Shown piece after piece: positions 12,251 through 26,332 of a stretch of 27,105 nt of DNA. The notes under the pieces are model-generated. The model ran no database searches. It saw only the letters and a list, made by a program, of their open reading frames with translations, and was not told where the DNA came from. Position 1 is the first letter of the stretch. The number at the start of each line of letters is the position of its first letter. The DNA is taken from IMG/VR virus record IMGVR_UViG_3300008952_000252, positions 1 through 27,105 of that record; one strand, given 5' to 3'. Both the position numbers and the translations under genes were made by a program. The stretch is from a virus.

Positions 12251-12279
12251 GTGAACACCGTAATATCTTGTTGTATGAT
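12251..12279 (+). promoter_or_regulatory. Sigma70-like promoter for the polymerase gene
   Basis: GTGAAC (12251-12256), a 17-bp spacer and TATGAT (12274-12279) form a plausible sigma70 promoter in the 46-bp gap between hub and polymerase. The -10 matches 5 of 6; the -35 matches only 3 of 6. The predicted transcription start (about 7 nt past the -10) falls at or next to the ATG at 12286. No Shine-Dalgarno is visible in this gap. Confidence 0.45.
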
Positions 12280-13506
12280 TATTGTATGATGATATGCGTA
12301 AACTCTGAACTTCTTGGGACGCGACAACATCTGATATATCAGATAGACGATGGCGGTGAGTATTACTGGAGTGAAAAAATACCAGTCGAGGCGTGGGTTT
12401 TTGGAGATTATAGTTCATTACGTAGTTTAGATGTTGTATTTGACTTACTAGGAATTGAGAAGCCAGCTATAGCTGTACAACCGCATGTTCGATCATTCAA
12501 ACTGTTAAGCGCTGCCGATTTTCCGGAAATTCCCTGGCATCAGGTATTACCACCTCATGAGTTTAAGCAGTTAATCGTACGTTTGCTCACCGGCCTCGAG
12601 AATGCCCTTGTGGGGTTTGTTTCTACTAACTATATGGAAACCTTTATGGCAAAGCGCGCCTTGCTTACAAGGCTTTCAAGGGTGACTGTTGACCGTCCCT
12701 TGCTAGCATCCTATATCCGTGATGAAGAGAATGCGACTGTCCGCGGAACACTTAAGTCTTTTTTGCCTGAAGCTGACTCCATATCTGGCTCAGTAACATA
12801 TAACCAGGCAGGAACTGTAACTGGCCGGTTGACGGTCAATGCCGGACCGCAGATTTTAACACTGCCAAAAAAGTATAGAGATATCATGATTTCACGATAC
12901 CCTGGAGGGAGTATAGTCCAGGTCGATTTCACATCCCTCGAGCCGCGTGTGGCACGATTAGCGACCGGTCTTGGTGCTGAGAATGATGTATATCTGCAAC
13001 TGTCTCGTGACCTTTTCAATTCTGCCTTACAGCGGGAAGAAGTAAAGATCGCTGTGTTGTGTGCGCTTTATGGCGTTTCGAAACGTCGATTAGCTCGAAT
13101 GTTAGGAGAAGGCTTTCAGGCTGATGCCGTTATTAGAGAGATCAAGGATTTTTTTGGCATACCTGGATTGGTGAAAGATCTTCGAAATCAGATGATGGTT
13201 AACCATAAGATCAAAAACCACTTTGGTAGGACCATTGAGCCAGATAAGATGGATGACAATATTTTGGTGAACCATTATGTTCAATCAACAGCAGTAGATG
13301 CTGCAATCTTGGGATTTCATCAATTAATGATCATGCTAGAGGGCCTTGCTGTGGATCCTTTATTTGTGATTCATGATGCGTTAGTTTTAGATGTATCCCC
13401 GAAGGCTATGACAGGCGTCCAGGATGCGCTTCTCTCTGGCCTTGATATTCCAACCATGGGAGCTTTTCCGGTGGAATTGAGTGTCATTAGTGACGCTAGG
13501 GAATAA
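12268..13506 (+). CDS. polA: Family A DNA polymerase, polymerase domain only
   Basis: This replicative-type DNA polymerase has 412 aa from the TTG; the ATG at 12286 (406 aa) is the likelier start. The polymerase core has VTGRL before motif A. Motif A is VQVDFTSLEPRVARLATG, with the metal-binding Asp at residue 220. Motif B is R256-xxx-K260-xxx-L264-xxx-Y268-G. The O-helix-distal N..QSTAVD follows, and motif C is FVIHDALVLDV with Asp370. The position equal to E. coli Phe762 is Leu264, and the usual HDE of motif C is HDA. Residues 1-150 show no 3'-5' exonuclease motifs, so proofreading is absent or supplied by another gene. T7 gp5 (704 aa) and Klenow are longer because they include that domain. 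It sits away from helicase and recombinase, between tail genes, with its own promoter and no clear ribosome binding site. Confidence 0.88.
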   Translation: MLYDYCMMICVNSELLGTRQHLIYQIDDGGEYYWSEKIPVEAWVFGDYSSLRSLDVVFDLLGIEKPAIAVQPHVRSFKLLSAADFPEIPWHQVLPPHEFKQLIVRLLTGLENALVGFVSTNYMETFMAKRALLTRLSRVTVDRPLLASYIRDEENATVRGTLKSFLPEADSISGSVTYNQAGTVTGRLTVNAGPQILTLPKKYRDIMISRYPGGSIVQVDFTSLEPRVARLATGLGAENDVYLQLSRDLFNSALQREEVKIAVLCALYGVSKRRLARMLGEGFQADAVIREIKDFFGIPGLVKDLRNQMMVNHKIKNHFGRTIEPDKMDDNILVNHYVQSTAVDAAILGFHQLMIMLEGLAVDPLFVIHDALVLDVSPKAMTGVQDALLSGLDIPTMGAFPVELSVISDARE

Positions 13507-13532: not shown

Positions 13533-14234
13533 ATGCCAATTAAAGGACATCAAATCGCAGACGGCACCGTAGAGGGTGTTGATATTGACTGGGACCCACA
13601 TCTCGAAATGAAGGGACATATCATCCCTGATACTCATGCTACTGGTAATAGTCCATACCCCGGTTGGGATATTGGATCCGCAGAGAAAAAAGTGCGACAC
13701 TTATTCTTGTCAAGCAACTCTCTTTGGATAGGCGATTCTCATAAGGTCGATATCGAAGGTGGTAAGAAGAAGCACAGAAAGCGAAAGAAGTCATCTCCGC
13801 CGAAGTCACTTCGACAATTACGTCAAACATTCTCTCGCTCGTCTTCAGCCACCGCCTCACTAACAACAGCCTCAGAGAGCGCCCAAGACGAGCAGATTCG
13901 TTCCGAGATCGAGGTCATGTTCGCGGGTGTGCCCGTGGATGTCGAGAATAACCAGCCGCCAACAGCACTAGCTCATGTCACATTAGCACAATGGATTCAG
14001 TATGCTCAATCGATTGATGGCCACGGAGACCCGGCATCGCTTACAGTAATGGATATTTTTAACCCTGAAGAAGAAGATGACTGGGAAGAAGTGATAGAAG
14101 ATGGTGAAGGTATTTCGCCTCATGCACCAGCAACTAGTTTATTCTTAAAGTCATCAACCCCGTCATCTACAAAAGTTTTTGAGATAAAAGTTGATGACGC
14201 CGGTACAATCACTGCAACAGAGGTAGTACCATAA
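13533..14234 (+). CDS. Probable virion (tail fibre/appendage-like) protein
   Basis: This 233-aa protein has an excellent Shine-Dalgarno (AGGAGG) before the ATG. Residues about 20-70 contain GHIIPDT..TGNSPYPGWDIGSAEKK and a following R.LFLSSNSLWIGD. That block resembles the D.GS...KFRDLYLSG.SIYIG repeats of phage tail fibres and appendages, where it forms a beta-strand unit. A strongly basic, Ser-rich linker follows (KKKHRKRKK near residues 78-90, then many Ser and Thr), then an acidic segment near 170-190. Only one fibre-like repeat is present, so this is a short appendage or adaptor rather than a full fibre. The receptor is not predictable. Its stop overlaps the next start (TAATG). Confidence 0.6.
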   Translation: MPIKGHQIADGTVEGVDIDWDPHLEMKGHIIPDTHATGNSPYPGWDIGSAEKKVRHLFLSSNSLWIGDSHKVDIEGGKKKHRKRKKSSPPKSLRQLRQTFSRSSSATASLTTASESAQDEQIRSEIEVMFAGVPVDVENNQPPTALAHVTLAQWIQYAQSIDGHGDPASLTVMDIFNPEEEDDWEEVIEDGEGISPHAPATSLFLKSSTPSSTKVFEIKVDDAGTITATEVVP

Positions 14235-14839
14235 TGGGAAGCACAGTTACAGAGGCGTTCATCCGCCGACATATTCGTAGGATTCTTACTGAAGAGGAAG
14301 GCAAGCCCAAGGGCGACAAACCCAAGGATGATAAGCCCAAGGATGATAAGCCCAAGGATGATAAGCCCAAGGAAGAACAATCCCGAGGACAAGGTCAGGT
14401 ATGGTCTGGTGTTAAGGGTGGCCGATTACCCAAGTGGGCGATTGAAGCGTTGGGTGGTAGTAAGAAGGCAACGCGTTTAGCATATACAGACCCGGCAGCA
14501 TTGATGAAAAATCTTAAATTATCACCTGCATCAGGTAATACGACCGTGGAAAGAGTAGCTGATCTGGTGAAACAGTCGATATCGGCACACCAGGAAATGA
14601 AGATGGCCTTTCCCGGGCTCGGTCCGGACGAAACCGACTCCGCTGGCAAAAAGGGTGTCTATATTGCACATGCTGGTGAATTATCTGGCCGAGCCGGTTC
14701 TACTATAGTACATGACTTAATCTACGGCGCATGGAAAGCAGGGTACCTAAGACTAACTGGAAATATCCGAATTGAAGAATTTCAGACCGGAACTATAGTT
14801 TTTAATGTTAGCAAAAGATCTGATCGATGGTCCCGTTAG
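14234..14839 (+). CDS. Hypothetical protein with Arg-rich N-terminal helix and PKDDK repeats
   Basis: I do not recognise this 201-aa protein. Residues 6-22 form a basic helix ending in acid (EAFIRRHIRRILTEEE). This is similar to the start of the protein at 15826 (LLRRYIRESLRAFLEA). Residues about 25-49 are five PK(D/E)-type 5-residue units encoded by a 15-bp tandem repeat, probably a flexible linker. The remaining 150 residues look globular, ending FQTGTIVFNVSKRSDRWSR, with no cysteines, membrane segments or catalytic motif I can name. The start overlaps the previous stop (TAATG) and GAGGTAG serves as ribosome binding site, so it is co-translated with the putative appendage gene. A virion role is inferred from context. 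Confidence 0.6.
   Translation: MGSTVTEAFIRRHIRRILTEEEGKPKGDKPKDDKPKDDKPKDDKPKEEQSRGQGQVWSGVKGGRLPKWAIEALGGSKKATRLAYTDPAALMKNLKLSPASGNTTVERVADLVKQSISAHQEMKMAFPGLGPDETDSAGKKGVYIAHAGELSGRAGSTIVHDLIYGAWKAGYLRLTGNIRIEEFQTGTIVFNVSKRSDRWSR
14306..14380 (+). repeat. 15-bp in-frame tandem repeat, five units
   Basis: Five consecutive 15-bp units begin at 14306, 14321, 14336, 14351 and 14366. The middle three are identical (CCCAAGGATGATAAG) and the outer two diverge. They encode Pro-Lys-acidic-acidic-Lys units inside the gene at 14234-14839. In-frame unit length means slippage changes linker length without breaking the protein. Confidence 0.9.
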
Positions 14840-14898: not shown

Positions 14899-15492
14899 AT
14901 GACCGATGACATCGATTTCGAAAAGCTACAATCAAATTGGGAAATGTTCGAAAAGCTTTGTGGCCGCCTTTCGGATGATAATCTAAATAATCTGGTTTCT
15001 GAGTTGGGCGAGCGAGCATGCATGTGCCCAGCATCTCCGCGGCTTGAACAATATGGCGCGCATCCAGGTGGCATGGTTGAGCATGCCCTGCAAGTAACTT
15101 CTATGATGAGAACGTTGAATACTGCACTGGAGTATGAGCTTCCTGTGGCATCGATTTTGAAGGTTGGTTTGCTACATGATTTTGGGAAGGTTGGAAACCT
15201 AAGTACTCGGTATTTCGTCGAGCAAGACTCTAGCTGGCATCGTGAAAAGTTAGGGCAGATGTTTAAGTATAATGAGAACCTCAATAAGATGTCTGTATCA
15301 CATAGGACGTTATGGCTTCTCCAGCATTTTGGGGTCGAGCTTACGTCTGATGAGTGGTTAGCAATTCAACTTGCCCAGGGGTCTCATTTTGAGGAGAATC
15401 GATTTTATGTCGGTCATGAGCCTACCCTTGCATTATTGCTACAACAGGCAAAATCAGTTGTAATCCATAAGAGTAAGAATGCCAACGTATAA
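14899..15492 (+). CDS. HD-domain phosphohydrolase
   Basis: This 197-aa protein has HD-superfamily metal-binding residues: His55 (HPGGM), His62 (VEHAL) and the diagnostic His93-Asp94 in VGLLHDFGK, with later His residues that could complete the site. HD proteins hydrolyse phosphate esters of nucleotides or cyclic nucleotides on a divalent metal centre. Substrate cannot be read from the sequence; a dNTP or nucleotide-monophosphate role fits the neighbouring MazG-like enzyme and the nucleotide genes downstream. A role against a nucleotide-signalled host defence is also possible but unproven. The ATG is preceded by TAGGAG and by the strong promoter at 14842-14870. The 3' end overlaps the next gene by 14 nt in a different frame. 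Confidence 0.82.
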   Translation: MTDDIDFEKLQSNWEMFEKLCGRLSDDNLNNLVSELGERACMCPASPRLEQYGAHPGGMVEHALQVTSMMRTLNTALEYELPVASILKVGLLHDFGKVGNLSTRYFVEQDSSWHREKLGQMFKYNENLNKMSVSHRTLWLLQHFGVELTSDEWLAIQLAQGSHFEENRFYVGHEPTLALLLQQAKSVVIHKSKNANV

Positions 15493-15825: not shown

Positions 15826-16098
15826 ATGAATGCTCTATTAAGAAGATATATTAGAGAGTCCTTGAGGGCCTTCCTGGAGGCTAAAGATGATGAAGATGAT
15901 GGTTTACTTGTTGAGCCAGATGATCATTCTGGAGAAGAGGCTAAAGAGAATACAATCGGTGGTGGTGGTATAGTCGGTATTACGGCACCATTAGGTGCAG
16001 GTCCTACCTATCCGGATAAACCGAAGACTAAAAAGAAGTTAAAAAAGAAGTCTGACATTAACACTAAAGCTTTTGGCGGCGGCGAATACGAGGATTAA
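15826..16098 (+). CDS. Small acidic protein with Arg-rich N-terminal helix and GGGGIVG motif
   Basis: This 90-aa protein of unknown function has three visible parts. A basic amphipathic N-terminal helix (LLRRYIRESLRAFLEA) leads into a very acidic run (DDEDD). A central NTIGGGGIVGITAPLG segment resembles a glycine-rich motif I have seen in small uncharacterised phage proteins. A lysine-rich stretch near residues 65-80 (KPKTKKKLKKK) precedes the tail. The N-terminus is similar to that of the protein at 14234. GAGGTG precedes the ATG. A virion or scaffold-associated role is possible, but nothing here proves it. No cysteines or membrane segment. Confidence 0.6.
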   Translation: MNALLRRYIRESLRAFLEAKDDEDDGLLVEPDDHSGEEAKENTIGGGGIVGITAPLGAGPTYPDKPKTKKKLKKKSDINTKAFGGGEYED

Positions 16099-16099
16099 G

Positions 16100-16360
16100 G
16101 TGAGCTTTAAGAATATAAAGGACGGGTGGCTTAACTACATTACGTCGATAATGTCTAGAAAAAAACTTCCCCAAGCAATTCAGAAAATGGCAGAAGATCG
16201 GGCCAAGATTTGTGGAGATTGTCCTGAGCTCCACATGGTAACACGCTCAGATGGTGTACCAGTTCGCGGCCGCTGTAAGAAGTGTGGTTGGTTATTTCCT
16301 GCGATGGTATTCGCTCCTGGAAAGCGTTGTCCACTTGGTAAATGGGATGCTAAGAAATGA
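16100..16360 (+). CDS. Zinc-ribbon-like small protein, copy 1
   Basis: The best start is GTG at 16100, with GAGG about 6 nt upstream. It gives MSFKNIKDGWLNYI, which aligns with the start of the next gene (MNLKDFAEGWLNYT). A longer in-frame reading from 16073 overlaps the previous gene and breaks that similarity. With this start the protein is 86 aa. Cysteines are arranged CGDCP, then GRCKKCG, then KRCPLGKW, enough to bind one zinc. This resembles a family of small phage zinc-ribbon proteins of the C..C...C..CG...CPLGKW type. No function is known to me; DNA, RNA or protein binding are all possible. The stop overlaps the next start (ATGA at 16357-16360). Confidence 0.72.
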   Translation: MSFKNIKDGWLNYITSIMSRKKLPQAIQKMAEDRAKICGDCPELHMVTRSDGVPVRGRCKKCGWLFPAMVFAPGKRCPLGKWDAKK

Positions 16361-16608
16361 ATCTAAAAGATTTCGCTGAAGGATGGCTAAATTATACTCG
16401 GGCAGTTATGAACCCAGATTCTTTATCTGGAGAAGCCCGGGAGAAGATAGAGAAAAGATCCGAGATATGTAGGACCTGTCCAGAGTATCAGAGCTTAGTT
16501 CCTAAAGGCACCCAGGGCCCGCTCCAGGGCCGCTGTAAGAAGTGCGGCTGTGCTTTCCCCGCGATGGTATACGCTATCGGAAAGACATGTCCTCTCAATA
16601 AATGGTAG
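16357..16608 (+). CDS. Zinc-ribbon-like small protein, copy 2
   Basis: This 83-aa protein is a diverged duplicate of its upstream neighbour. It shares GWLNY near the N-terminus, CxxCP, the identical GRCKKCG, FPAMV(F/Y)A.GK and the CPL.KW ending. Copy 2 has one additional Cys (CGCAF) where copy 1 has CGWLF. The ATG overlaps the stop of copy 1 in an ATGA arrangement, which means coupled translation. The cysteines most likely bind one zinc ion. Conservation of the Cys pattern in both copies implies both are functional. It is the last gene before the SSB promoter. Confidence 0.75.
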   Translation: MNLKDFAEGWLNYTRAVMNPDSLSGEAREKIEKRSEICRTCPEYQSLVPKGTQGPLQGRCKKCGCAFPAMVYAIGKTCPLNKW

Positions 16609-16712: not shown

Positions 16713-17540
16713 ATGGCAATCGATTTTGATGCAATTCGTAAGAAGTTGGGCCAGCTTTCTGGTACCAGTAGTCGCCGCAATTCAATGTGGCGTCCGGAAG
16801 AGGGAGAGGAACATACCGTTCGCCTTCTTTCATTCCCCGATAATGATGGGCAGCCCTTCAAGGAGCGCTGGTTTTATTATAATATCGGCAACAACCCAGG
16901 CCTTTTGGCCCCCAAGCAATTTGGCGACCCTGATCCAATTCAGGAATTGATTAACAACCTTCGGGATGATGCCTCGAAAGAGTCATATGAGCTTGCAAAG
17001 AAGCTGTATCCCAAGATGAGGTGCTACGCACCTGTTATCGTCCGAGGTGAGGAAGATAAGGGTGTACGTCTTTGGTCTTTTGGAAAGACCGTATATCAGA
17101 GTCTTCTAAACATTATGCTTGATGAAGACTACGGCGATATTACTGATCCTACTGAGGGTCGTGATGTCAAGGTAACTTGTAATAAGCCGCCAGGTCGTAT
17201 GTGGGCAACTACCACTGTACGCCCTCGAGGCAAGGCTACTGTTCTATCAACCGATGCAAATCAAGTACAAGAGTGGGCTAGCGCAATTCCATCCCTAGAT
17301 GAGTTGTATACTTGTAAGTCATATGAGGAGCTTGAAAAGATTGTTAATGATTGGCTTTCTGGCGACTCTGATGATGATACCGGTTCTTCTCGGGGCCCAT
17401 CCCCGGATCTCAACCTTGAGAGTAAGAGTACTGCTACTACAACGTCGACGGATGAGACTACTACTACCACTACTACCAGTACTGATAGCTCGAAGTATCG
17501 TAGTCTAGATGAGGCTTTTGCAGATCTAGAAGATCTATAG
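16713..17540 (+). CDS. ssb: gp32-like single-stranded DNA-binding protein
   Basis: This 275-aa replication SSB coats single-stranded DNA for the recombinase, helicase and polymerase. The body (about residues 25-185) reads like the OB-fold of T4 gp32 relatives: an N-terminal LGQLSGTSSRRNSMWRP segment, HTVRLLSFP, ERWFYYNIG, then RCYAPVIV and the trailing GRDVKVT. The Cys/His zinc site of T4 gp32 is absent: only three isolated Cys remain (in MRCY, VTCN and LYTC). Residues about 217-258 are a low-complexity Asp/Ser/Thr linker with a run of threonines. The end is the acidic RSLDEAFADLEDL tip expected to contact partner proteins. It has its own promoter and leader upstream and a palindromic terminator downstream, so it is probably a separate, abundant transcript. 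Confidence 0.82.
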   Translation: MAIDFDAIRKKLGQLSGTSSRRNSMWRPEEGEEHTVRLLSFPDNDGQPFKERWFYYNIGNNPGLLAPKQFGDPDPIQELINNLRDDASKESYELAKKLYPKMRCYAPVIVRGEEDKGVRLWSFGKTVYQSLLNIMLDEDYGDITDPTEGRDVKVTCNKPPGRMWATTTVRPRGKATVLSTDANQVQEWASAIPSLDELYTCKSYEELEKIVNDWLSGDSDDDTGSSRGPSPDLNLESKSTATTTSTDETTTTTTTSTDSSKYRSLDEAFADLEDL

Positions 17541-17643: not shown

Positions 17644-18831
17644 ATGGCAAAAAAGAACACCGCCGGCGCCGAAGACTTTACTAGTGACTTAATTAAGTCC
17701 CTAAACAAAGAACATGGAAGTAAGGTCGCATATAATTTAGCATACGACGTTTCTCCAACCCACGTACAACGATGGATTAGTACTGGCTCTAAACAGTTAG
17801 ACTATATTATAGCTAATAGAGCAAACGGCGGAATGCCTGAGGGTCGAATTGTTGAAATCTTCGGCCCTCCGTCAATCGGAAAGTCTCACATAGCAATTCA
17901 GATTGCACGAACAACTCAGCAGATGGGTGGGATTGTTGTATATATCGATACGGAAAATGCTACGTCGGTTGAGAATCTAGGCCTTCTAGGTGTTGATATC
18001 GAGAAGAGATTTGTATATGTCGACACACACTGTACAGAAGAGGTACTATCAATCGCCGAGGCTACAATTCTCAAGGCAAAGGCAATGGATAAGGATGTCC
18101 CAATTACAATTGTCTGGGACTCTGTAGCGGCATCGTCTCCAAAGGCTGAGCTTATTGGTGATTATGATAAAGAGACAATCGGGCTCCAGGCCCGGGCAAT
18201 TTCTAAAGGAATGAGAAAGATTACCGGTGTGATTGCAAATCAGAATGTTTTATTTGTAATCTTGAACCAGATCCGAACTAAGATCGGTGTTATGTATGGT
18301 GATCCTACGACCACTCCAGGTGGTAAGGCAATTCCATTCCATTCCTCTGTGCGGATTAAGCTTGGCGCCGGTCAAAGAATTGAGAACAAGGATAAAGAGG
18401 TTGTAGGAATTCACGTTTCAGCAAAGACAATTAAGAATAAGGTTGCACCTCCCTTTAGAACCGTAAATTTCGAAATTCATTTTGGGGTCGGTATTAAAGA
18501 ACATGAACAAATTTTTGACGTTCTAAGAAAGCATGGTCCTGAGATTATCGATGGAAAGAAGATAGAGATTTCTGGATCAAGCGCCTGGAAAACGTTGCAG
18601 GTTATTGACGTAGCTACTGGTGAAGAGCTGGCCCAAAAGAAATTTCATAAATCTGACTTTGGGGAAGTAATGGCAGCCCCGGAATATTCTGCATATATCG
18701 ACCAAATGCTAGAAAAAGTTTTGGTACGTGAGTTTGATTCGGTAGTTGCTGATGTCGACACAGAATCCTATGAGGAAGTCCGCTCAATTGCTTTAGAGCT
18801 TGATGATGAGCTAATTTCACCAGGTTCTTAA
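17644..18831 (+). CDS. recA: RecA/UvsX-type recombinase
   Basis: This ATP-dependent strand-exchange protein has 395 aa (E. coli RecA has 353). The Walker A motif is G74-PPSIGKS-81. VVYIDTENA follows, then the Walker B-type VWDSVAASSPKAEL. The DNA-binding L1/L2 region carries LQARAISKGMRKITG, LNQIRTKIGVMYGDP and TTPGGKAIPFHSSVRI, which closely follow bacterial RecA (NQIREKIGVMFG, GG.AL.FYAS.R). It is therefore nearer to cellular RecA than to T4 UvsX. The extended, acidic C-terminal region (residues 330-395) is less recognisable. It works with the upstream SSB and downstream helicase in recombination-dependent replication and repair. The next gene starts 1 nt after the stop. Confidence 0.93.
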   Translation: MAKKNTAGAEDFTSDLIKSLNKEHGSKVAYNLAYDVSPTHVQRWISTGSKQLDYIIANRANGGMPEGRIVEIFGPPSIGKSHIAIQIARTTQQMGGIVVYIDTENATSVENLGLLGVDIEKRFVYVDTHCTEEVLSIAEATILKAKAMDKDVPITIVWDSVAASSPKAELIGDYDKETIGLQARAISKGMRKITGVIANQNVLFVILNQIRTKIGVMYGDPTTTPGGKAIPFHSSVRIKLGAGQRIENKDKEVVGIHVSAKTIKNKVAPPFRTVNFEIHFGVGIKEHEQIFDVLRKHGPEIIDGKKIEISGSSAWKTLQVIDVATGEELAQKKFHKSDFGEVMAAPEYSAYIDQMLEKVLVREFDSVVADVDTESYEEVRSIALELDDELISPGS

Positions 18832-18832
18832 T

Positions 18833-19801
18833 ATGGGCATTGATTCCCGCCGCCCAATATTACTGGTCGACGCACTTAATGTCTTTATGCGCCACTATAT
18901 AGCAAATCCAACGATGTCTGATCACGGTCATCATGCTGGTGGTATTGTCGGATTCCTTAAGTCAATTCGGTATTTGGTAGATCAGATTCATCCCTCTGAG
19001 GTCATTATTGCATGGGAAGGTGGTGGGTCGGCGCGCAGGCGGGCCATCTTTAAAGACTATAAATCCGGCCGGCGGCCCCAGCGCCTGAATCGATTTTATG
19101 AAGATGACATCCCGAATACCGTAGAGAATAAAAATTACCAGGTTTCGCGCTGCATCGATATTTTGAAACTTGTACCCGTAAAACAAATTTATGTGGCTGA
19201 CTGCGAGGCCGATGATGTAATCGGTTATCTGGTAAAGAATATATTTTCGAATCAACGTTGCGTAATTGCATCTTCTGATAGGGATTATTACCAACTTCTT
19301 TCGAATAGGGTAATTCAATGGTCACCCGGACAAAAGAAATTTATTTCGGCCGGTGAAGTAAAGAGGAAATTTAATATCTCTCCAGAAAATTTTTGTGTTG
19401 CGAGATGCTTTTGCGGCGATGGTTCTGATGCGATCCCAGGTATAAAAGGTGCTGGTTTTAAGACACTAGCAAAGCGTTTCCCGGAATTGTCGTCTTCGGA
19501 ATTTACATCCGTTGAGGAGATACTTAGCTTAAGTGAACAGCGCTCTATTAATAGCAAAATTAAACTTTACCATAATATTCTCGAGGATAGAGATGTCCCT
19601 CGTCGAAACTGGAAGCTGATGTATTTAGACACAGCGAACTTATCCGCTAGCCAAGTTCAAAAGATTAGCAGCATTGTTGATACTTTTGAGCTATCTCGCA
19701 ATAAAATAGAATTAATGAGAATGCTTAAGCGCGAAGGACTATTAACCTTTGATGCGGATTCATTTTTTATGACACTTAACACTATTCCAAAGTCGGAGTA
19801 A
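18833..19801 (+). CDS. FEN-type 5'-3' exonuclease (RNase H-like flap nuclease)
   Basis: This 322-aa nuclease removes RNA primers and 5' flaps and belongs to the family of T4 RNase H, T5 exonuclease and the N-terminal domain of Pol I. Metal-binding acids are all in place: Asp13 (LLVDALN), Glu125-Asp127-Asp128 (CEADDVIG), Asp149 and Asp151 (SSDRDYYQL), and Asp196 and Asp199 (GDGSDAIPGIKGAGFKT), the last forming the helix-hairpin-helix. An arginine/lysine-rich arch segment (ARRRAIFKDYKSGRR, residues about 65-80) lies between. Because the phage polymerase lacks a nuclease domain, this protein supplies the 5' nuclease activity in trans. It starts 1 nt after recA ends, and the next gene starts 6 nt after it. 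Confidence 0.92.
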   Translation: MGIDSRRPILLVDALNVFMRHYIANPTMSDHGHHAGGIVGFLKSIRYLVDQIHPSEVIIAWEGGGSARRRAIFKDYKSGRRPQRLNRFYEDDIPNTVENKNYQVSRCIDILKLVPVKQIYVADCEADDVIGYLVKNIFSNQRCVIASSDRDYYQLLSNRVIQWSPGQKKFISAGEVKRKFNISPENFCVARCFCGDGSDAIPGIKGAGFKTLAKRFPELSSSEFTSVEEILSLSEQRSINSKIKLYHNILEDRDVPRRNWKLMYLDTANLSASQVQKISSIVDTFELSRNKIELMRMLKREGLLTFDADSFFMTLNTIPKSE

Positions 19802-19807
19802 CAAAAT

Positions 19808-21205
19808 ATGAATCAGACAGTAGTCCATATGGCCCATGATAATCATTCACACTTTGCCCAATACGGAAAACAATTCCAAGAAAAGATTTTCCAGGGATTG
19901 TTGTCTGACCACAGTTGGTCGACACAGATGATTGAGGTAATGAGCCCCAGCTTTTTTGATGTTAAGTATTTAGCATATTTGACTGAAAAGTACTTTGCGT
20001 ATTTTCAGAAATACAAGACGTTTCCCACGTTGCCTTTATTGATTACGATTATCAAGGATGACTTATCTCAAGGAAATGATGTCATTCTTCGTGATCAAAT
20101 TGTGGAGTTCTTACATCGGATCAAGCATAATCCTGATATGGGTGACGTCGCGTATGTTAAAGACAAATCATTGGATTTTTGTAAGAGGCAAGCATTCAAG
20201 GAAGCTCTAGAGCAAGCCGTTGAACTTATTTCAACAGATAAGTTTGAGTCTGTAGTCGGTTTAATGAAGACTGCAGTCGCGGTTGGTATGCCGTCTTCGG
20301 TAGGACATGACTTTTTTGAAGATGCTGAAGCAAGATTTCTTAAGATTAGTCGGCAGGTCTGCCCAACCGGAATTGACAGGCTAGATGCTAGTGATATTTT
20401 GCAAGGTGGTTTAGGCAAGGGTGAACTTGGCGTAATTACAGCAAATACCGGTGTCGGGAAGAGTCATTTCTTGGTACAGATGGGTGCTAATGCTATGCGT
20501 GCTGGTAAAAATGTAGTACACTATACTTTTGAGTTGTCTGAGGTTGCCGTAGGAAGAAGGTATGACTCAAACCTATGTGCGATCCCCAGCAATGATATTA
20601 TCGATAATAAGGAATCTGTCTTAGAGAGATATAACGACAAGGAACTAGGGCGCCTTATTATTAAGGAGTATCCTACCGGCTCTGCATCCATTATTACGAT
20701 TCGAAACCATATTGAAAAATTAACCCTTAAGGGATTTAAGCCGAATGTAGTGATTATCGATTATGCGGATATCATGCGTTCTACACGCAGTTATGACTCT
20801 TTGCGGCACGAGCTTAAGTTAATTTATGAAGAGCTAAGAAATATGTCTATGGAGATGGGTGTCCCAATTTGGACTGCATCTCAAGCTAATAGGGATTCCG
20901 CCAGCTCAGACATCGTCGGCCTTGAGAACATGTCTGAAGCGTATGGCAAGGCGATGGTTGCAGATGTAGTAATTTCTATGTCCAGAAAGCCGATGGAAAA
21001 ATCGACAGGAGCCGGCCGTCTTTTCGTTGCAAAGAATAGAGTAGGTCGAGATGGATTACTTTTTCCAATTCACATCGACACCAGTATGTCTATAATAGAA
21101 GTACTAGACGAGTCTGCGCTAACGTTAGCAGAGGCTACAGAGCAAGATGATAATGCGATGAAAGACCTGCTAAAAAAGAAGTGGAAAGAAGTTAGTAAGA
21201 TATAG
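19808..21205 (+). CDS. dnaB: DnaB-like replicative helicase
   Basis: This 465-aa hexameric replication-fork helicase fits the DnaB/gp41 type. The RecA-like motor begins near residue 185. The Walker A is A212-NTGVGKS-219, the H1a-type motif. The Walker B is VVIIDYADIM with Asp318, followed by WTASQANRD as the DnaB H3 glutamine motif and an arginine-finger-like KNRVGRDGLLFP near residue 405. Residues 1-175 are a helical N-terminal domain, as in gp41, without a primase zinc ribbon or TOPRIM motif, so the primase must be encoded elsewhere. GGAG lies 9 nt before the ATG. It should load on SSB-coated DNA and travel with the polymerase. Confidence 0.92.
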   Translation: MNQTVVHMAHDNHSHFAQYGKQFQEKIFQGLLSDHSWSTQMIEVMSPSFFDVKYLAYLTEKYFAYFQKYKTFPTLPLLITIIKDDLSQGNDVILRDQIVEFLHRIKHNPDMGDVAYVKDKSLDFCKRQAFKEALEQAVELISTDKFESVVGLMKTAVAVGMPSSVGHDFFEDAEARFLKISRQVCPTGIDRLDASDILQGGLGKGELGVITANTGVGKSHFLVQMGANAMRAGKNVVHYTFELSEVAVGRRYDSNLCAIPSNDIIDNKESVLERYNDKELGRLIIKEYPTGSASIITIRNHIEKLTLKGFKPNVVIIDYADIMRSTRSYDSLRHELKLIYEELRNMSMEMGVPIWTASQANRDSASSDIVGLENMSEAYGKAMVADVVISMSRKPMEKSTGAGRLFVAKNRVGRDGLLFPIHIDTSMSIIEVLDESALTLAEATEQDDNAMKDLLKKKWKEVSKI

Positions 21206-21222
21206 GATAAGGACAAATAAGG

Positions 21223-23682
21223 ATGGTAAGTTTTGATAGTGCATTTGAGGAATCTCTAAATTATTTTAGTAATGATGCCCTCGCCGCGAATGTTTTTGTC
21301 TCGAAGTATGCGTTAGTTGATCGTGAAGGTAATTTACATGAGTCGACCCCTGATGATATGCATCGTCGACTAGCACGTGAGTTTGCACGTATCGAAAAAA
21401 AGTATCCGAATCCGCTTACACAGAATGAGATATATCTACTCTTTAAAGATTTTCGGTATGTAGTTCCTCAAGGATCTCCGATGTCTGGGGTGGGTAATCC
21501 ATATCAGGTCCAGTCTATCTCAAATTGTTTTGTTATTGATGCACCCCATGATTCCTATGGTGGCATTCTCAAGGCCGACCAAGAACTAGTCCAGATTGCC
21601 AAGCGCCGCGGAGGTGTTGGGTTTGATATTTCTACAATTCGGCCGGCCGGTAGATCAACAGGAAATTGTGCTCGTACGACGGATGGGATTGAGGTCTTTA
21701 TGGATCGGTTTTCTAATTCCTGTCGTGAGGTTGCACAAAATGGCCGTCGTGGTGCATTGATGTTGACGATATCAGTACACCATCCACAGGTTTTAGATTT
21801 TATTCGGATTAAGAAAGATCTAAATCGTGTTACCGGTGCGAATATTTCCGTACGACTCTCCGATGAGTTTTTGGATGCGGTCAAGCGAGAAGGTGAATAT
21901 GAACTTCGCTGGCCTGTTGACGCAACTAATCCAGACGTCTCTTATCATACTGATGCTGTAAAAATATGGAATGAGATTATTTCTGCGGCTCATGCATGTG
22001 CGGAACCTGGATTGTTGTTTTGGGATACAGCAAAAAACATGTCACCCGCAGACATATATGCTGATGAAGGGTTTGCCTCTGAATCTACTAATCCATGTGG
22101 TGAGATAATCTTGTCGCCGTATGATAGTTGTAGGTTAATGGTGGTAAACCTATATTCATTTGTTACCGGCTTATTCACCCCAGAAGCTAGCTTTAATTGG
22201 GAGCTTTTTGCAGAAGTTGTCCAGAAGGCTCAACGCTTAATGGATGACATGGTTGATCTTGAAATTGAGCAAGTAGATAAAATTCTTGCAAAAATTGAAA
22301 ATGACCCTGAGCCTGATGACGTAAAAGCAATTGAAAAAAATCTTTGGACAAAGATTAGGGAGCAGGCACTTAAAGGCCGCCGAACTGGTCTCGGTGTAAC
22401 GGGCGTAGGTGATACGTTGGCTGGGCTTGGTATAAAGTACGGCTCTGATGCTTCAACTAAATTAGTAGAAGAGATCTATAAGGCACTAGCCGTAAATGCA
22501 TATCGATCATCTTGTATTATGGCTAAGGAACGTGGATCTTTTCCGGTCCACGATCATGATCGTGAGATCGATCATGAGTTTCTAAATAGAATTTGGGAAG
22601 AAGATCCAGAAATTTATGGGATGAATAAGGAGTATGGCCGACGCAATATTGCTCTAACGACGACTGCCCCTGCTGGATCTGTTTCTACGCTTACCCAAAC
22701 AACCAGTGGTATTGAACCTGCATATATGTTAAAGTATACCAGGCGAAAAAAGCTAACACAGAATGATGTAAATGCACAAATTGACTTTGTGGATGACTCC
22801 GGTGACCGCTGGCAGGAGTATGATGTTTATCATCATGGATTTAAGCAGTGGATGGATATCTCTGGTTTATCAAATGAAGAACAGTCGCCGTATTATCAGG
22901 CCACTGCGACAGATATTGATTGGGTACAAAAGGTAAAGCTCCAAGCCGCGGCCCAAAAGTGGATTTGTCATGCCATCTCGAATACGACAAATATCCCAGC
23001 GGATACAAGCATCAATACCGTTAAGAAGATATACATGGAGGGCTGGAGCTCTGGATGCAAAGGCGTAACTGTATATCGCGACGGCGCAAGATCAGGCGTC
23101 CTGGTGTCAAAGGACGATGATACTGGCAGAACATTCAAGATTCATAATGCCCCGAGCAGGCCTCTTGAGTTAGCATGTTCTATTCATCATGCAACTATTA
23201 AGGGCGAGGCTTGGACTATTCTTATCGGCCTATTTGAAGGCCGGCCATATGAAGTAATTGGTGGCCTCTCTCAGTTTGTTGAGATTCCCAAGAAGTATCG
23301 CGAAGGGTGCATTATTAAGCATCATCGTAAGACTAAGAACTCTGTTTATGATTTGGTTTTTGGTGAGAATGGGGATGAGGTTGTCTTAAAGGATATTGTA
23401 TCGCTGTTTGATAATCCTAATCATTCTGCATTCACCAGGACAATATCTTTGGCCCTACGCCACGGCGCTCCTATTCATTATATCGTTGAGCAATTGCAAA
23501 AGGATAGAGATGCTGATCTTTTTTGTTTCTCTAAGGTGATTGCTAGATGTCTAAAGGGATATATATCTAATGGAACGAAGCCTGGCAAAACAGTATGTGA
23601 AAACTGCAGTGCAGAAGATTCTTTAGGGTACCAGGAAGGATGTGTTACATGCACCTCCTGTGGCCATAGTAAATGTAGCTAA
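21223..23682 (+). CDS. nrdJ: Adenosylcobalamin-dependent (class II) ribonucleotide reductase
   Basis: This enzyme reduces ribonucleotides to deoxyribonucleotides with a radical generated from coenzyme B12, so it needs no NrdB partner and works with or without oxygen. At 819 aa it is full length. The active-site cysteines are Cys102 (SISNCFVI), Cys303 (YDSCRLMVVNL) and the thiyl-radical Cys292 within N290-PCGE-294. RRGGVGFDISTIRP, GRRGALM and TTAPAGSVSTLT are further family blocks, and EGWSSGCKGVTVYRDG precedes the C-terminal TSCPD-type domain (from about residue 645). The last 25 residues carry CxxC pairs, the likely thioredoxin-facing or zinc-binding tail. No small subunit gene follows, which supports class II. 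Its presence means the phage depends on host or environmental B12. Confidence 0.93.
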   Translation: MVSFDSAFEESLNYFSNDALAANVFVSKYALVDREGNLHESTPDDMHRRLAREFARIEKKYPNPLTQNEIYLLFKDFRYVVPQGSPMSGVGNPYQVQSISNCFVIDAPHDSYGGILKADQELVQIAKRRGGVGFDISTIRPAGRSTGNCARTTDGIEVFMDRFSNSCREVAQNGRRGALMLTISVHHPQVLDFIRIKKDLNRVTGANISVRLSDEFLDAVKREGEYELRWPVDATNPDVSYHTDAVKIWNEIISAAHACAEPGLLFWDTAKNMSPADIYADEGFASESTNPCGEIILSPYDSCRLMVVNLYSFVTGLFTPEASFNWELFAEVVQKAQRLMDDMVDLEIEQVDKILAKIENDPEPDDVKAIEKNLWTKIREQALKGRRTGLGVTGVGDTLAGLGIKYGSDASTKLVEEIYKALAVNAYRSSCIMAKERGSFPVHDHDREIDHEFLNRIWEEDPEIYGMNKEYGRRNIALTTTAPAGSVSTLTQTTSGIEPAYMLKYTRRKKLTQNDVNAQIDFVDDSGDRWQEYDVYHHGFKQWMDISGLSNEEQSPYYQATATDIDWVQKVKLQAAAQKWICHAISNTTNIPADTSINTVKKIYMEGWSSGCKGVTVYRDGARSGVLVSKDDDTGRTFKIHNAPSRPLELACSIHHATIKGEAWTILIGLFEGRPYEVIGGLSQFVEIPKKYREGCIIKHHRKTKNSVYDLVFGENGDEVVLKDIVSLFDNPNHSAFTRTISLALRHGAPIHYIVEQLQKDRDADLFCFSKVIARCLKGYISNGTKPGKTVCENCSAEDSLGYQEGCVTCTSCGHSKCS

Positions 23683-25237: not shown

Positions 25238-25637
25238 ACAACTTACTAAGAATTTTAGGTTATCTGAATTTAAGTGCAGGGACGGTTCATGCGTTCCTGA
25301 CGAGTATATTGAAAATGTTGAGCTGTTGGCGAAGAATTTACAAGTACTTCGAGACCACATCGGCCGACCGGTTAGGGTAATTAGCGGCTATCGCTCCCCA
25401 AAGTATAATAGAAAGATTGGGGGCGCTCGACGTAGCCAGCATATGTTGGCCAAGGCTGCTGATATAAAAGTTGCCGGCATGTCTCCGGATGAAGTGAGGG
25501 CTGCAATATTACAATTGATTGATGAAGGTAAAATGCAGCAAGGTGGCCTCGGCCGATACCGCAGTTTCACGCACTACGACGTGCGCACCCGCAAGGCCCG
25601 TTGGTCTGGCAGTGGTATCAAGGATGATAGAAAGTAA
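25230..25637 (+). CDS. M15-family peptidase (D-Ala-D-Ala carboxypeptidase-like)
   Basis: This small zinc peptidase (135 aa) cleaves peptide stems in peptidoglycan. Start is GTG 25230, overlapping the amidase by 8 nt. Zinc ligands follow the M15 pattern: His71 (RSQHMLAKAADI), Asp78, seven residues later, and His115 (FTHYDVR). VRVISGYRSPKYN is the M15_3 signature before the first ligand. With the amidase upstream it makes a two-enzyme cell-wall cassette. It could be a second endolysin or, because such peptidases also occur in virions, help at entry; context favours lysis. No holin or signal peptide is visible. Confidence 0.9.
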   Translation: MGRQLTKNFRLSEFKCRDGSCVPDEYIENVELLAKNLQVLRDHIGRPVRVISGYRSPKYNRKIGGARRSQHMLAKAADIKVAGMSPDEVRAAILQLIDEGKMQQGGLGRYRSFTHYDVRTRKARWSGSGIKDDRK

Positions 25638-26332
25638 TGTCAGGAATCAAGAGGGTTGAATTATACGGTGATGACATCGGGGCAGTTGAGTATGTCGAGC
25701 ATATGGGATCTGACTTAACGGTTGTCAATAGCGCCCGCGTTTCTTTTGGCAAACGAAAAGAAGCTTTGGATGAGCGTGACAAGAAGCTTATTCGTTACTT
25801 AATCGACCATAAGCATACCTCAACGTTGGAACATAATATTATTACTTTTCGATTCTGCGTACCCTTGTTTATTCGCAGCCAGCATCATCGTCATCGGACA
25901 TGGTCATATAATGAAATATCCAGACGCTATACTGATGTAGATCTTCAGTTTTATGAACCGAAGGAATTCCGTACTCAGCATAAGAGCAATCGCCAGGCAT
26001 CAAATACTAACGAGCTGCTTGATCCGCAGATTAACGAATCAACATCAGCATCAGGACTCCTTAGAGATCATCATGAAGCTTCGCTATTTGTATATAACAA
26101 ACTTTTGGATGCAGGAGTATGTAGAGAACAAGCCAGGGGCGCTTTACCTCAAAACCTATATACTGAGTACTACGGTACAGTCAACCTTAATAATTTGATC
26201 AAGTTTATAGAGCTTAGAACTCATGAAGGAGCCCAATGGGAGATTCAACAAGTCGCAAAGGCTTGTTTGGGAATAGTTAAAGACCTGTGGCCGGTAACAA
26301 TATCGGCATACAGAGAGATTAGGGATATTTAG
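25637..26332 (+). CDS. thyX: Flavin-dependent thymidylate synthase
   Basis: This enzyme makes dTMP from dUMP using methylenetetrahydrofolate, FAD and NADPH. The 231-aa length is typical. The ThyX motif RHRxxSxNxxSxRY is complete at residues 85-98 (RHRTWSYNEISRRY). HTSTLEHNIITF and ARGALPQNLYTEYYGTVN upstream and downstream are conserved flanks, and FIELRTHEGAQWEIQQVA is the C-terminal helix pair. Start overlaps the previous stop by one base (TAATG). Together with NrdJ it supplies thymidine precursors for phage DNA without a host ThyA. No folate reductase gene is in the window, consistent with ThyX chemistry. Confidence 0.95.
   Translation: MSGIKRVELYGDDIGAVEYVEHMGSDLTVVNSARVSFGKRKEALDERDKKLIRYLIDHKHTSTLEHNIITFRFCVPLFIRSQHHRHRTWSYNEISRRYTDVDLQFYEPKEFRTQHKSNRQASNTNELLDPQINESTSASGLLRDHHEASLFVYNKLLDAGVCREQARGALPQNLYTEYYGTVNLNNLIKFIELRTHEGAQWEIQQVAKACLGIVKDLWPVTISAYREIRDI

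Follow-up and report, generated by a model that had tools for sequence, protein, structure and literature searches.

The window analysed here, a virus record of 27,105 bases from IMG/VR, carries a small family A DNA polymerase (mini-PolA) that heads a recombination/lagging-strand gene cluster of a large marine tailed phage and is of the divPolA1 kind, a type already published in 2024 (PMC11348598). Mini-PolA is probably accessory to DnaE, i.e. a helper and not the main copying enzyme. The best explanation, which we consider fairly likely, is that it is a proofreading-less, single-function polymerase of the divPolA1 type, with DnaE acting as the replicase and with mini-PolA and a separately encoded FEN-type exonuclease forming a gap-filling "split Pol I". 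The features discussed below are as follows.

12286–13506, + strand: mini-PolA (divPolA1-like), 406 aa (Pfam, AlphaFold, fold match, 82 relatives)
12922–12954, + strand: motif A, VDFTSLEPRVA, with D214 and E219 (alignment; D and E invariant in 82)
13033–13074, + strand: motif B/O-helix, REEVKIAVLCALYG, with R250, K254, L258 (position 762) and Y262 (alignment)
13369–13386, + strand: motif C, IHDALV, with H363, D364 and A365 (alignment)
14234–14839, + strand: conserved hypothetical gene between the polymerase gene and slot X, found in some of the relatives (tblastn/HMM; no Pfam match)
14899–15492, + strand: slot X, YhaM-fold HD protein, 197 aa (AlphaFold, fold match, hhalign, residue counts)
16713–17540, + strand: gp32-like ssDNA-binding protein (Pfam gp32, 9.8e-11; phrog_1192)
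17644–18831, + strand: UvsX/RecA-like recombinase (Pfam RecA, 4.7e-64; phrog_97)
18833–19801, + strand: separate FEN-type 5′-3′ exonuclease (Pfam 5_3_exonuc_N, 3.4e-27)
19808–21205, + strand: DnaB-like ring helicase (Pfam DnaB_C, 4.8e-20; phrog_19, 4.9e-72)
21223–23682, + strand: class II (B12) ribonucleotide reductase NrdJ (TIGR02504, 476 bits, cut-off 400)
25637–26332, + strand: ThyX (TIGR02170, 169 bits)

The polymerase ORF is real, and the coordinates and frame initially given for it, opening at a TTG at position 12268 and running to 13506, are right. Since the Met at 12286 is where homologues begin, the protein is assigned 406 aa, and residues are numbered accordingly (Leu264 of the initial annotation, in 412-aa numbering, is L258). 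The Pfam DNA_pol_A model matches residues 162–390 of the 412-aa numbering (E-value 3.9e-12; 46 bits, cut-off 34).

An exact peptide-pattern search with the mini-PolA protein alone gave no relatives. UvsX used as a query led to 80 marine contigs (76–83% identity), most of which carry a polymerase homologue of 28–55% identity approximately 4–5 kb upstream of UvsX. These, together with further sequences from a profile search, make up the set of 82 distinct polymerases. Each contig screened with the DNA_pol_A model contains exactly one such gene or none. In one contig (G058, locus L231) DnaE is present and there is no mini-PolA match, though the expected place of the polymerase gene seems to lie inside the contig.

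Alignment of the 82 relatives showed that D214 (corresponding to D705), E219 (E710), R181 (Arg668), R250 (754), K254 (758), H363 and D364 (D882) are invariant. Position 762 is occupied by Leu in 64 sequences, Ile in 17 and Met in one, and motif C reads HDA in 79 and HDS in three. Mini-PolA thus has the motif A Asp and Glu710, the motif B Arg/Lys, the motif C Asp and the Pol I fold of a family A DNA polymerase. The DEDD motif of the 3′-5′ exonuclease is absent, the motif-I positions being held by unconserved residues in the 82 homologues, so that the protein is not a proofreading Pol I of the Klenow type. What had been read from the single sequence, namely a small family A polymerase with motifs A, B and C, no 3′-5′ exonuclease motifs, Leu at the 762-equivalent position and an HDA motif C retaining the metal-binding Asp, is therefore borne out. 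The motif set is not due to chance, and the gene is under purifying selection (dN/dS 0.06–0.12 in the close pairs for which it was computable).

The AlphaFold model of mini-PolA, made with an alignment of 36 relatives' sequences, has a pLDDT of 93.8 and superimposes on the Taq, Bst, Klenow and T7 polymerases with VIA Z scores of 21–23 and up to 393 of the 406 residues aligned. Its first residue aligns where the exonuclease domain begins (Klenow 351, T7 1), and therefore the first ~90 residues seem to be the reduced remains of the 3′-5′ exonuclease domain. The model suggests a vestigial exonuclease (approximately residues 1–90), a reduced thumb (~90–160) and palm and fingers (from ~165). The N-terminal region, for which a structural check for an exonuclease fold had been proposed, fits only such a vestigial domain, which would have lost its acidic residues. 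A BFVD fold search with mini-PolA returned ordinary PolAs only, at no more than 19% identity. A search of 20 contigs for a hidden Pol I exonuclease (PF01612) gave no match; family B polymerases were likewise not detected in these 20 contigs.

The divPolA1 group was described by Yutin et al. (2024, Virol J 21:200) from 14 phages, with occurrence in marine (GOV) phages, as having an inactivated exonuclease and a truncated thumb and as occurring "in addition to a regular DNAP of family A, B or C" (PMC11348598). Mini-PolA shares the conserved palm residues, the truncated thumb and the inactivated exonuclease, and is followed by SSB, RecA, FEN and DnaB genes, as in Flavobacterium phage immuto. A regular DNA polymerase elsewhere is seen in 21 mini-PolA contigs of relatives, the window itself being a 27-kb fragment. 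Immuto gp001 is, similarly, a short PolA with palm catalytic residues kept, a truncated thumb and an inactivated exonuclease, and its gene order (pol-x-x-SSB-RecA-FEN-DnaB-RNR) is alike. However, the immuto HD homologue lies elsewhere, at 77 kb, and both gp001 and WWT39333 of phage Mel-JY01 have Phe at position 762 and a YDA motif C, in place of the Leu/Ile and HDA found here. BLASTP against gp001 gave an E-value of 6e-4; hhalign gave 2e-8 against gp001 and WWT39333 and 2e-13 against ordinary phage PolA, i.e. the two are no closer. WWT39333 (Microcystis phage Mel-JY01; L309, 7820–9046), annotated as hypothetical, lies in the same gene order and is a very divergent mini-PolA.

Compared with E. 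coli Pol I Klenow fragment, Taq and T7 gp5, mini-PolA has the same fold, motifs A, B and C and the metal-binding Asp pair, but lacks a functional 3′-5′ exonuclease, has a reduced thumb and an Ala in place of Glu883, is only 13–20% identical, and is accompanied by a 5′ nuclease encoded by a separate gene. In cellular Pol I the FEN-type 5′ nuclease is carried within the same chain. The possibility of an RM378-type (Rhodothermus) split polymerase was also considered; the literature search gave nothing on the RM378 polymerase. A 2022 survey required a CDD hit of at least 325 aa (PMC9069017), a threshold that mini-PolA, with its Pfam match of 229 aa, may fall short of.

The initial annotation placed the polymerase physically apart from the helicase and recombinase genes. 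This does not hold, since mini-PolA opens a conserved cluster of co-directional genes (polymerase, the hypothetical gene where present, slot X, gp32, UvsX, FEN, DnaB, RNR). The gp32, UvsX, FEN and DnaB genes lie 3–8 kb downstream of the polymerase gene, the cluster is kept in every relative covering the region, and the same order recurs in immuto, a cultured phage. At 16073–16360 and 16357–16608 the window encodes two small Cys-rich proteins (phrog_13558-like) that are adjacent and resemble each other, and one relative (L170, 10858–11834) carries three putative iron-sulphur cluster assembly genes inserted between DnaQ and gp32.

In relatives, a second complete replicative polymerase was identified, a finding that the initial annotation had itself named as a refutation of its reading. 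A DnaE of ~1,200 aa (PF07733, E-values as low as 1e-60), joined to a PHP domain, is encoded in 19 of 28 relative contigs, and a second contig set contributed five more, two of which also carry mini-PolA. The total was set at 23 contigs, 21 of them with mini-PolA, with G065 and G030 counted once because they may represent a single phage. Those sequences that were inspected have an intact PDID(T/S)D polymerase motif. In the PHP domain nine positions are known to bind metal (PMC3919608), and 19/19 DnaE keep every one of these metal-ligand positions. This applies at L211, L216, L226 and further dnaE loci, whether or not the lineage has DnaQ. The idea that the PHP domain is intact only where DnaQ is absent was ruled out, as it is intact everywhere.

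DnaE lies 14–38 kb downstream of the polymerase gene in the 20 contigs with a measurable distance; in one relative (L226) dnaE begins approximately 3 kb past ThyX. Thirteen contigs are without DnaE, 12 of which show less than 20 kb downstream of the polymerase gene, and one mini-PolA contig (G064) has no DnaE within 59 kb downstream. The window, with 13.6 kb downstream, contains no DnaE and ends before its expected place. Nor was DnaE found in any contig of its sub-clade, G001 (14 kb downstream shown) and G021 (19 kb) lacking it upstream as well, so for the phage of the window it is the position in the tree that points to a DnaE.

The replicative role initially proposed is thus made unlikely by the full-length DnaE of the relatives, with its intact polymerase and PHP residues, even though none has yet been seen in the window's sub-clade. 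We regard it as unlikely that mini-PolA is the main replicative polymerase, working without proofreading and with Leu/Ile762 compensating through greater selectivity. This explanation draws on the position of mini-PolA at the head of the replication cluster, a placement from which Yutin et al. suggested that divPolA1 takes part in replication (PMC11348598), on the lack of a visible DnaE in the window and the nearest contigs, and on the report that Leu762 makes Taq slower but more accurate (PMC6302109). Against it stand the occurrence of DnaE on the other main branches of relatives and the short thumb, which would argue against high processivity.

The presence of full-size DnaE in relatives points instead to mini-PolA as, probably, a helper polymerase. 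DnaE would copy the phage genome, and mini-PolA and the separately encoded FEN would act together as a split Pol I, filling gaps in Okazaki-fragment maturation, recombination or repair, where proofreading may often be dispensable. The slot-X product (a YhaM-fold HD protein here, DnaQ in some relatives) would be a polymerase-associated subunit. Proofreading has been lost from approximately half of the Pol I orthologues in bacteria, and solo FENs take the place of the fused domain (PMC12926913). The literature search found no biochemistry for any member of the divPolA1 kind.

The slot-X HD protein was modelled by AlphaFold as almost all helical (pLDDT 94.5). By far its best fold match is YhaM (9h3f; VIA Z 17.2, next structure 9.3), with which it aligns over YhaM residues 103–286; hhalign to YhaM gave an E-value of 3.3e-7, including the helices preceding the HD domain. 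The protein therefore has the YhaM-type fold with its pre-HD helices but, unlike YhaM/Cbf1, lacks the N-terminal OB fold in its 197 aa and has lost most of the conserved metal ligands, a set that includes the HD pair and the C-terminal Asp. Among 71 distinct marine HD sequences, the C-terminal metal Asp is replaced by Lys/Arg in 69, the YhaM "HHG" motif lacks its His, the HD Asp is changed to Glu in 34 and the first HD His is lost in 30. In the HD relatives of immuto, Dp-1 and Lak phages the metal site is mostly or fully kept. Despite the dismantled metal site, purifying selection on the marine HD protein is strong, with dN/dS of 0.01–0.08.

In other relatives slot X is occupied by a DnaQ of type 1 (280 aa, PRK09182-like) or of a distinct type 2 (198 aa), both with intact motifs. 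On the polymerase tree type 1 forms one clade and type 2 appears twice, once as sister to an HD carrier, so that DnaQ replaces HD in slot X at at least three separate places. Across 58 contigs, 39 encode HD, 16 an RNase_T-family exonuclease, none both and three neither (short or truncated contigs), a mutual exclusion with Fisher p 1e-11 when kinship is ignored. The alternation between the polymerase and gp32 genes can be seen in the window (14899–15492) and at L057, L079, L176, L177 and L135. One contig (G012), in which the slot is off the contig, carries a third, unrelated DnaQ-like RNase_T gene away from the polymerase cluster (L085, 1375–2220), and L040–L042, apparently the same phage, carry HD; HD may therefore coexist with an unrelated exonuclease.

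The finding of HD or DnaQ, and never both in the 58 contigs, suggests a single interchangeable polymerase-partner seat. Tentatively, this seat may hold one polymerase-bound subunit, being either an active DnaQ or a YhaM-derived pseudo-exonuclease, its metal site lost, which would hold or steer the primer terminus without cutting it. The alternation is new, and is not in the main text of Yutin et al. (PMC11348598).

That the slot-X protein proofreads for mini-PolA in trans, as DnaQ in some relatives and as an HD-type (YhaM-like) 3′-5′ exonuclease here, is quite improbable. Slot X is at the same place in all relatives, DnaQ types 1 and 2 retain an intact DEDD motif and replace HD repeatedly, and YhaM is a 3′-5′ exonuclease that, with Mn(II), degrades ssDNA as well as ssRNA (PMC11347170). 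The ligand counts over the 71 distinct sequences, however, oppose an active YhaM-type proofreader, and DnaQ could equally well partner DnaE. Thus, of the initial description as "proofreading-free or trans-proofread", the lack of an active proofreading domain stands, and proofreading in trans is possible only in lineages with an adjoining DnaQ, the slot in the window holding a degenerate YhaM-like HD protein.

Family A members that have lost the exonuclease serve in lesion bypass, motif C of single-subunit RNA polymerases reads HDS, and the UvsX/gp32 neighbourhood suits recombination, but a translesion, recombination-primed or otherwise specialised polymerase, or an RNA polymerase/primer synthase, is very improbable given that Glu710 and the other key residues of motifs A and B are of the DNA-polymerase type in 82/82 sequences.

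With mini-PolA read as a helper of DnaE, Leu762 in a phage PolA does not necessarily mark a replicase. The virioplankton Leu762 PolA groups, which share this residue, are associated with SF1/SF2 helicases and little RNR (Nasko 2018, PMC6302109), whereas mini-PolA is found with a DnaB ring helicase and a class II RNR (window 19808–23682) and with ThyX. Since a Leu762 polymerase is accompanied here by a ring helicase and a class II RNR, and by DnaE in relatives, inferring replication mode or lifestyle from position 762 can mislead. The present results extend divPolA1, so far published from 14 genomes, to a large marine clade. The repeated replacement of HD by DnaQ offers a case in which to test how proofreading partners of phage polymerases are gained, lost or replaced.
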